Below, piece after piece: positions 38,847 through 41,573 of a stretch of 64,000 bases of DNA. The position numbers and the translations under genes are program-made. The notes below the pieces were generated by a model. That model worked only from the letters and a program-made list of their open reading frames with translations. It was not told the origin of the DNA and ran no database searches. Position 1 is the first letter of the stretch. Each line of letters begins with the position of its first letter. The stretch is from Halogeometricum sp. S1BR25-6. Its GTDB lineage: Archaea; Halobacteriota; Halobacteria; Halobacteriales; Haloferacaceae. The stretch lies in the NCBI RefSeq assembly GCF_031624495.1, contig NZ_JAMQOP010000001.1:992001-1056000 (forward strand), read 5' to 3'.

Positions 38847-41573
38847 ATGAAGCAGGCAGGGCTCACGGACGGCGATTGGGGCGGTGGCGGCGACGACGCC
38901 GACGGCGCGCGGCCGGAGGCCGAGGCCGCACACGTCGCGGGCGACGGGAGCCAGCACGTCTCGGACGTCGTCGACTCCGAGGAGATACGCTTTCCCGACG
39001 CCGACGGCACCGTCGAACTCGCCGTCACGCAGGTGGACTACACCGTCGAGGGGAACGGCGACCAGGAGTACCCGGTCGTCCACGTCTTCGGTCGCACGCG
39101 CGAGAACGAGACCGAGCACGTCCGCGTGCTCGGATTCGAGCCCTACTTCTACGCGCCGACCGACACGCTGGACGACGACCTCCTCGACAAGTCGGTCATC
39201 ACGCGGACGGAGGACGGCTACGAGAGCATCCGCGGCGAGGAACTGACGAAAATCTGCACGCGCACGCCGCGGGACGTGGGCCGGATCCGCGACGAGTTCG
39301 ACCACTACGAGGCGGACATCCTCTTTCCGAACCGCCTCCTCATCGACAAGGACATCCAGAGCGGCATCTGCGTCCCCGCGCGCCGCCTCGACGAGGACGG
39401 CACCGTCCAGGTGCCGCACGACGAAGTCGTCCCCATCGACGTCGACGCCGACCTGCGCGTGAATACCTTCGACATCGAGGTGGACGACCGCTCGGGGTTC
39501 CCCGAGGAGGGCGAAGAGCCCATCATCTGTCTCACCTCGCACGACTCCTACCGCGACGAGTACATCGCGTGGCTCTACAACGCCCCGGAGGCCGGCGACG
39601 GCGTCGCGGCGCCGACCGACCTCGGCGACTACGAACCGCTGGACGACGACACCGACGTGGAGATTCGCGCGTTCGACCGCGAGGGGGAGATGCTGGACGC
39701 GTTCGTCCGGTACATCGAGGAGACGGACCCGGACGTGCTCACCGGCTGGAACTTCGACGACTTCGACATGCCGTACTTCCTCGACCGACTGGAGGTCGTC
39801 GACCCCACCTCCGACTACGACCTCGACCCGGACCGCCTCTCCCGCGTCGGCGAGGTGTGGCGGAGCGGATGGGGCGGCCCCGACGTGAAGGGCCGCGTCG
39901 TCTTCGACCTGCTGTACGCCTACAAGCGCACGCAGTTCTCCGAGTTGGAGTCCTACCGACTGGACGCCGTCGGCGAACTCGAACTGGACGTGGGGAAGGA
40001 GCGCTACTCCGGGAGCATCGGCGACCTGTGGGAGCAGGACCCGAGACGGCTCTTGGAGTACAACGTCCGCGACGTGGAACTCTGCGTCGAGATAGACAGA
40101 AAGCAGGACGTCGTCGCCTTCTGGGACGAGGTGCGGACGTTCGTCGGCTGTAAGTTGGAGGACGCGACGACGCCCGGCGACACCGTCGACATCTACGTGC
40201 TGCACAAGGTCCACGGCGAGTTCGCCCTGCCGTCGAAGGGGCGACAGGACGCGGAAGAGTACGAGGGCGGCGCCGTCTTCGACCCCATCACGGGCGTCAA
40301 GGAGAACGTCACGGTGCTCGACCTGAAGTCGCTGTATCCGATGTGCATGGTGACGACCAACGCGTCGCCGGAGACGAAGGTCGACCCCGAGACGTACGAG
40401 GGCGACACGTTCCGCGCGCCCAACGGGACGCACTTCCGGAAGGAACCGGACGGCATCATCCGGGAGATGGTCGACGAACTCCTCGAAGAGCGAGAGGAGA
40501 AGAAACGCCTTCGCAACGAGAACGACCCCGGTAGCGCCGCCTACGAGCAGTTCGACCGCCAGCAGGGGGCGGTGAAGGTCATCATGAACTCGCTGTACGG
40601 CGTGCTGGGCTGGGACCGCTTCCGCCTGTACGACAAGGAGATGGGCGCCGCCGTCACGGCGACCGGTCGGGAGGTCATCGAGTTCACCCAGCGGACCGCC
40701 AACGAACTCGGACACTCCGTTGCATATGGTGACACTGATTCAGTCATGCTCGAACTCGGCCCGAACGTGTCGAAAGAGGAGGCCATCGAGCGCTCGTTCG
40801 ACGTCGAGGAGCGAATCAACGACGCCTACGACGACTTCGCCCGCGACGAACTCGGCGTCGACCTAGAGGGAGGAGAGGAACACCGCTTCCAGATCGAGTT
40901 CGAGAAACTGTATCGGCGGTTCTTCCAGGCGGGCAAGAAGAAGCGCTACGCCGGGCACATCGTCTGGAAGGAGGGCAAGGACGTCGACGACATCGACATC
41001 ACCGGCTTCGAGTACAAGCGCTCGGACATCGCGCAGGTGACCAAGGAGGTCCAGCGCGAGGTCATCGAGATGATCGTCTACGGGGAGTCCACCGACACCA
41101 TCAAGGAGTACGTCCACGAGGTCATCGCCGACTTCCAGGAGGGGAACCTCCCGCTGGACGAGGTGGGGATTCCGGGCGGCATCGGCAAGCGACTCGACGC
41201 CTACGACACGCGAACCGCGCAGGTCCGCGGGTCGCTGTACGCCAACGCCTTCTTGGGGACGAACTTCGGGCGCGGGTCGAAGCCGAAGCGACTCTACTTG
41301 CGGAAAGTCCACCCTTCGTGGTTCCGTCGGATGGAAGAGGAGGAGGGGTTCGACCCCCAGCGAGACGACCTGTACGGGCAGTTCAAACGCGACCCGGACG
41401 TCATCTGCTTCGAGTACGAGGACCAACTCCCCGAGGCGTTCGAGGTGGACTGGGAGACGATGCTGGAGAAAACGCTGGAGGGTCCCATCGCCCGCATCAT
41501 CGAAGCGCTCGGCATGTCGTGGGACGAGGTGAAGTCCGGTCAGCAGCAGACCGGGCTCGGTAGCTTCATGTGA
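38847..41573 (+). CDS. polB: DNA polymerase B (family B replicative polymerase)
   Basis: A 908-aa polymerase. The 3'-5' exonuclease begins with Exo I F-D-I-E-V (D209, E211), then N-F-D-D-F-D (Exo II) and Y-N-V-R-D (Exo III). Polymerase motifs: A D492-L-K-S-L-Y-P, B with K-V-I-M-N-S-L-Y-G, C Y-G-D-T-D-S at 627-632. None of the three usual intein sites is occupied. Codons across motif C are abnormal (see findings). ATG 38847 is 27-28 nt after a TTTTTAG TATA box, so the N-terminal acidic 45 residues are kept and an earlier in-frame ATG is rejected. Confidence 0.95.
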   Translation: MKQAGLTDGDWGGGGDDADGARPEAEAAHVAGDGSQHVSDVVDSEEIRFPDADGTVELAVTQVDYTVEGNGDQEYPVVHVFGRTRENETEHVRVLGFEPYFYAPTDTLDDDLLDKSVITRTEDGYESIRGEELTKICTRTPRDVGRIRDEFDHYEADILFPNRLLIDKDIQSGICVPARRLDEDGTVQVPHDEVVPIDVDADLRVNTFDIEVDDRSGFPEEGEEPIICLTSHDSYRDEYIAWLYNAPEAGDGVAAPTDLGDYEPLDDDTDVEIRAFDREGEMLDAFVRYIEETDPDVLTGWNFDDFDMPYFLDRLEVVDPTSDYDLDPDRLSRVGEVWRSGWGGPDVKGRVVFDLLYAYKRTQFSELESYRLDAVGELELDVGKERYSGSIGDLWEQDPRRLLEYNVRDVELCVEIDRKQDVVAFWDEVRTFVGCKLEDATTPGDTVDIYVLHKVHGEFALPSKGRQDAEEYEGGAVFDPITGVKENVTVLDLKSLYPMCMVTTNASPETKVDPETYEGDTFRAPNGTHFRKEPDGIIREMVDELLEEREEKKRLRNENDPGSAAYEQFDRQQGAVKVIMNSLYGVLGWDRFRLYDKEMGAAVTATGREVIEFTQRTANELGHSVAYGDTDSVMLELGPNVSKEEAIERSFDVEERINDAYDDFARDELGVDLEGGEEHRFQIEFEKLYRRFFQAGKKKRYAGHIVWKEGKDVDDIDITGFEYKRSDIAQVTKEVQREVIEMIVYGESTDTIKEYVHEVIADFQEGNLPLDEVGIPGGIGKRLDAYDTRTAQVRGSLYANAFLGTNFGRGSKPKRLYLRKVHPSWFRRMEEEEGFDPQRDDLYGQFKRDPDVICFEYEDQLPEAFEVDWETMLEKTLEGPIARIIEALGMSWDEVKSGQQQTGLGSFM

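Follow-up and report, generated by a model that had tools for sequence, protein, structure and literature searches.

Motif C Pocket in an Intein-Free polB Gene

Why should a gene in which nearly all codons end in G or C carry a run of codons ending in A or T precisely at a catalytic motif? This question is raised by the polB gene of Halogeometricum sp. S1BR25-6, which encodes a family B DNA polymerase of 908 codons without an intein and is located at positions 38847 to 41573 (forward strand, as are all polB features below) of the window, i.e., the whole analyzed stretch of 64,000 nucleotides. A/T-ending codons account for 8.1% of the gene, but for seven of the eight codons of motif C (VAYGDTDS, 40719 to 40742), which read GTT GCA TAT GGT GAC ACT GAT TCA and form the top 8-codon window of the whole polB for this property. 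Based on amino-acid-specific codon rates, the local chance of at least seven A/T-ending codons out of eight is 6.8e-10, and among 20,000 simulated genes, only 7 contained an 8-codon window reaching this level; both values are conservative, since the pocket was part of the data behind the codon rates. The anomaly reported in an earlier note on this DNA was thus borne out. The limits given there hold for the core, while the real zone is somewhat wider, since further A-ending codons lie beside the pocket (GAA at 40704, GGA at 40710, and GAA at 40752); over approximately ten codons on each side of the pol-c insertion point (40704 to 40763), 10 of 20 codons end in A or T.

The position of this insertion point, YGD^TDS, was read from intein-bearing relatives and falls between 40733 and 40734, where the site is vacant in the studied allele. 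Insertion at YGD^TDS was found in all eight intein-bearing loci among the matches listed, and a congener allele (G004) carries a 439-aa insertion at this codon boundary, so that the pocket does correspond to the pol-c homing site, as had been proposed. Three further insertion points of the gene are likewise vacant and feature normal codons, namely pol-a in motif A (deduced from the alignment as K^S or S^L, 40328 to 40332; 1 of 20 A/T-ending codons), pol-b (MN^SLYG, 40589 to 40590; 0 of 20), and a site in the exonuclease domain (TGWN^F, 39752 to 39753; 0 of 20), in agreement with the earlier statement on motifs A and B. The exonuclease-domain site is presumably polB-d. Insertions of approximately 360–450 aa after TGWN were observed in the polB loci L116, L140, L147, L148, L158, L180, L223, and L224, and a polB-d intein is listed in PMC4071816.

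Alleles and Measures

The polB gene was located in 166 of 170 genomes of the family, and alleles were taken, among the matches listed, from 100 regions of 99 genomes, 30 short loci, and 80 out of 243 named relatives, the nearest two named loci to that of the window being those of H. pallidum and H. limi. In total, 208 polB loci were reduced to 170 representatives, 154 of which had a third-position A/T fraction below 0.2 outside the intein sites; three rows were left out, two without a usable motif C (L108 and L242) and one below the score cut (L141). The site-excess comparison comprised 157 GC-rich alleles, and 153 alleles (third-position A/T fraction <0.25, 32 of them occupied) entered PGLS with a tree derived from the rest of polB. 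For MCM, listed in 167 of 170 genomes, 90 alleles were considered; DP2 was represented by 40 alleles from 40 of 60 genomes, and RpoB served as a control in 30 of 166 genomes. Synonymous divergence in polB was scanned in 15-codon windows for 586 close pairs (synonymous distance <0.2 elsewhere), and in MCM for 256 pairs; close pairs were few for DP2 (10 at a distance <0.2 and 48 at <0.27). Random windows for comparison originated from the same genes, excluding gene start and end. The effect of vacancy at the polB sites was judged by PGLS and nearest-pair tests, and the per-codon PGLS at pol-c covers the zone except for the Met codon.

Commonly Invaded Sites in Three Replication Genes

The pocket at motif C is no private scar of the studied allele, but a feature that commonly invaded sites in polB, MCM, and DP2 have in common, meaning that the link between intein sites and odd codons drawn in the earlier note is real and recurs in other genes. 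Among vacant alleles, the A/T excess amounted to 0.276 at pol-c, 0.286 at MCM-a, 0.212 at DP2-a, and 0.141 at pol-b, followed by MCM sites 363 and 402 with 0.160 and 0.094, respectively. Random windows reached maxima between 0.053 and 0.093, and none of them matched pol-c, pol-b, MCM-a, or DP2-a. For the rarely occupied sites pol-a (12 of 157 alleles) and polB-d (8 of 157), no appreciable excess was detected (0.017 and 0.023, with z values of 0.9 and 1.2). The excess is limited to approximately ten codons on each side of the insertion points, extending longer only to the right of MCM-a, where the next site lies 27 codons on. In the 122 vacant GC-rich polB alleles, A/T-ending codons are most concentrated, gene-wide, in windows on motif C, and in the 32 occupied ones in windows at the pol-b neighborhood and just past motif C. 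Beyond the family, 55 paired genomes among the matches listed showed 0.20 A/T-ending codons in the vacant motif C vs. 0.05 in a control motif within polB (p = 6e-7).

The scan of synonymous divergence placed the top peaks of polB at codons 628, 582, and 297, matching pol-c (628/629), pol-b (580/581), and the insertion point of the exonuclease domain (about 301/302), the latter being a divergence peak whose vacant alleles are devoid of A/T excess; divergence at pol-a was weak (ratio 1.29). In MCM, peaks at codons 344 and 328 flank site 336, corresponding here to MCM-a, which has been described as following the Walker A lysine (PMC10643990), and further peaks were found at 362 (site 363) and 403 (sites 401/403); at position 416, with four insertions, no peak appeared (0.85). 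The leading A/T peaks of MCM coincide with these divergence peaks, with extras at the gene start and at 413. For DP2, the top A/T peak among the 40 alleles was located at 897–898, adjoining site 905; divergence peaked at 903 for the 48 pairs at <0.27 and off-site at 851 for the 10 pairs at <0.2. The window's genome itself carries a 468-aa insertion at MCM-a (MCM locus L291). A second pocket in this genome, with 9 of 20 A/T-ending codons, lies at the vacant MCM site 363 (reference codons 353–372).

The frames following polB in the window are taken from their sequence to be sufC and sufB. Controls were provided by SufB, SufC, SufD, and RpoB. In SufB, SufC, and SufD, the largest A/T windows are found at the gene start, with values elsewhere of 0.11, 0.18 (codon 18), and 0.11, respectively; in RpoB, they are located at the two ends, followed by 0.19 at codon 31 and at most 0.08 inside. 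A strong A/T-ending excess (0.21–0.54) at the first codons of all four genes was observed across the family and is probably the usual start-region effect. Since SufC also featured a divergence peak of 2.08 in an acidic linker, near the 2.11 of pol-b, the divergence ratio alone is unspecific, and the A/T excess combined with exact position represents the stronger sign. Amino-acid differences were lower at motif C (0.041) than overall (0.080), but reached 0.26–0.38 in the outer flanks. General relaxed constraint does not account for the hotspots, because the protein is conserved at motif C and the A/T peaks of the control genes occur only near their ends.

Conserved motifs might also require particular codons for reasons independent of inteins, for instance the speed of translation or the structure of the RNA, a need that an inserted intein would remove. 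Intein sites do sit in conserved motifs, the A/T status of motif C is common to distant lineages, and an effect confined to vacant alleles, as described below, is compatible with this explanation. However, motif A of the same polymerase is without excess, the conserved KRYAGHIVW stretch of polB has 0.05 A/T-ending codons vs. 0.20, SufC and RpoB lack an internal excess, and the pocket codons themselves are diverse and turn over fast instead of being conserved. Such a codon function is therefore considered very improbable.

Vacant and Occupied Alleles

The presence of an intein at pol-c was associated with fewer A/T-ending codons at motif C (PGLS, −0.167 ± 0.039, p = 3.8e-5, n = 153), and over 20 codons the A/T fraction was lower by 0.166 ± 0.031 (p = 3.1e-7). 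For 26 disjoint nearest pairs of occupied and vacant alleles, the vacant member was higher in A/T in 19 cases and lower in three over 20 codons (p = 3.5e-4), and higher in 17 and lower in four over eight codons. Individually, codons −9, −8, −7, −4, −3, −1, 0, +3, +5, +7, and +8 were lower in A/T when the site was occupied (p < 0.05), and no difference was detected by per-codon PGLS at −10, −5, +1, +2, and +6. Cross-tests by PGLS yielded no effect, neither of the pol-c state on the pol-b region, nor of the pol-b state on motif C, nor in a control region. In raw comparisons, occupied alleles were also less A/T-rich at MCM-a (p = 0.038) and DP2-a (p = 0.01); at MCM site 363 and polB-d, with seven and eight occupied alleles, respectively, and at pol-b, raw values were higher when occupied. 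Once phylogeny was taken into account, no difference was left at pol-b (effect 0.000, p = 0.99).

Vacant alleles carry between zero and eight A/T-ending codons at motif C, with letters differing widely; the uniform codons in all polB genes that the earlier note had named as a refutation are thus not observed. Occupied alleles of GC-rich hosts mostly have zero to three, and their codon set is narrow (GCG/GCC in 95% at −4, TAC in 91% at −3, and ACC in 88% at position 0). Between the occupied congener G004 and the vacant allele of H. limi, belonging to the same genus, silent differences within codons −23 to +15 are found only at −4, −3, −2, and 0. Vacant alleles depart from the occupied codons at pol-c, where they may include escape alleles, and do not at pol-b.

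A pattern of this kind could arise by mutagenic repair without selection, in which vacant sites cut by the endonuclease are repaired in an error-prone manner, nonsynonymous changes are purged, and silent changes biased to A/T accumulate, while occupied sites stay uncut and ordinary. The zone is narrow around the insertion point, synonymous turnover is fast among close relatives, divergence at pol-c is lower for occupied pairs (1.65 times background vs. 3.04 times), and repair of this type has been suggested for mobile introns (PMC5378118). It leaves the equal or higher A/T content of occupied pol-b alleles unexplained, though. A pattern of T on the left and A on the right would be expected from damage to resected single strands, but strand-asymmetric deamination gave a mixed outcome, with MCM-a and pol-b in favor and pol-c and DP2-a showing the opposite. 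Repair as the only cause is thus regarded as unlikely, yet far from negligible.

Traces of a Donor and Horizontal Exchange

The earlier note had favored an intein homing from a low-GC donor with co-conversion of the flanks and later clean loss. Some exchange between lineages is indeed evident at pol-b, where distant vacant alleles share haplotypes of the site (polB codons 575–585) far beyond shuffles, indicating that import occurs there; the A/T excess of occupied pol-b alleles also fits a donor. At motif C, the nearest allele is the vacant one of Halorubrum kocurii, identical to that of the window at 23 of 24 bases. On the other hand, codons at pol-c are mostly ordinary in high-GC hosts that carry its intein, A/T going with vacancy, and vacant pol-c alleles of distant lineages have A/T class in common but mostly not the letters, with one of two segments borderline for letter sharing beyond A/T class (p = 0.043). 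Flanks of occupied pol-c alleles track the host gene (partial rank correlation 0.31) and hardly the intein (0.09). Correlations between flank and intein distance with the host removed were small throughout the occupied alleles (0.09 at pol-c, 0.18 at pol-b, and 0.09 at MCM-a), and co-conversion among them was rejected. Because occupied pol-c alleles have fewer A/T codons and the letters of vacant ones are mostly unshared, a co-conversion scar is disfavored, and we consider it quite improbable.

No donor haplotype was present among the fetched polB alleles or viral contigs, and none of the fetched intein-bearing low-GC alleles offered intein-flanking exteins matching the window. The suspected match with Haloquadratum failed to appear, H. 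walsbyi (L076; GTT ATT TAT GGC GAC ACC GAT TCA) being outside the 14 closest alleles. Two viral contigs from IMG/VR (L433 and L434) carry an intein-free polB that is 65–66% identical; of the eight codons of motif C, five and three, respectively, end in A or T.

Proposed Silent Rewriting of Vacant Homing Sites

Taken as a whole, the evidence favors a silent drift of the vacant target away from the homing endonuclease, be it driven by selection, by mutagenic repair of breaks, or by the two together. Our leading reading, to which we assign close to an even chance, is that the pocket represents a vacant homing site rewritten silently away from its homing endonuclease. The endonuclease would repeatedly meet and cut vacant sites, and synonymous variants weakening its recognition would be retained, because the protein motif cannot change; break repair may supply such variants. 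As occupied GC-rich alleles are mostly G/C-ending, a departure from the target mostly means A/T-ending codons, which each lineage might choose independently. Escape from recognition, the second idea of the earlier note, thereby fits better than a donor scar, though proof is lacking. It is ranked first because the motif is fixed, the occupied codon set is narrow, and the changes within the genus between G004 and H. limi touch the insertion point.

Several observations stand against escape. The A/T excess at pol-b is equal in occupied and vacant alleles, and the mechanism is kept tentative because of this missing occupancy effect. Furthermore, 29 of 123 vacant pol-c alleles are without any A/T-ending codon among the eight of motif C. 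Homing endonucleases of this type recognize roughly 24–31 bp, a footprint exceeded by the zone of approximately 60 bp. They are stated to tolerate single synonymous changes (Naor et al. 2011, PMC3024317), so that several would be needed for escape. It is somewhat more doubtful still that haloarchaeal replication genes evolve silent immunity under recurring attack from intein homing endonucleases, with invariant catalytic motifs synonymously recoded lineage by lineage and gene-drive targets becoming unrecognizable while the protein is unchanged.

Relation to Known Systems

Raised variation near mobile introns is known. According to Repar and Warnecke (2017, PMC5378118), mobile introns in yeast mitochondria increase the density of SNPs at exon borders. 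The similarity lies in variation concentrated a few tens of bases or less from where homing elements insert, as well as in the causes discussed there, co-conversion and mutagenic repair. Unlike in that report, the present case concerns inteins, archaeal chromosomes, divergence between species, a strong A/T-ending bias in GC-rich genes, and a link to vacancy at pol-c. Mitochondrial introns of Metschnikowia likewise show higher SNP density around insertion sites (PMC8601654); these are introns rather than inteins, and codon bias is absent from the summary of that study. Vacant haloarchaeal alleles also feature in the description of MCM alleles resisting the MCM-d intein (PMC10643990), where resistance is attributed to a flanking proline, whereas the changes found here are silent and resistance is only putative. 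The PolB homing endonuclease of Hfx. volcanii is active and belongs to a haloarchaeal polB intein (named polB-c in PMC10643990), and recoding of its target lowers homing (PMC3024317); the changes reported there were non-synonymous and reduced homing from ~90% to 27% of colonies, whereas the pockets described here are synonymous. No intein counterpart of intron-border variation was found in titles and abstracts of the open-access literature, and the intein version is apparently new.

Inteins are natural gene drives seated in motifs of high conservation. Silent recoding of vacant sites, if real, would constitute a natural record of drive resistance at positions with an unchangeable protein, and a past invasion could be read from codon usage alone. 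If break repair is mutagenic instead, homing elements would burden essential genes with mutations locally. Haloarchaea, with the in vivo homing assay available in Hfx. volcanii, make this question directly testable. Moreover, silent sites adjoining intein sites would mislead phylogenies.

Besides polB, the window's genome contains another frame that distantly resembles a family B polymerase (L002, contig C6:11065-11976) and is 26% identical to residues 470–796 of polB.
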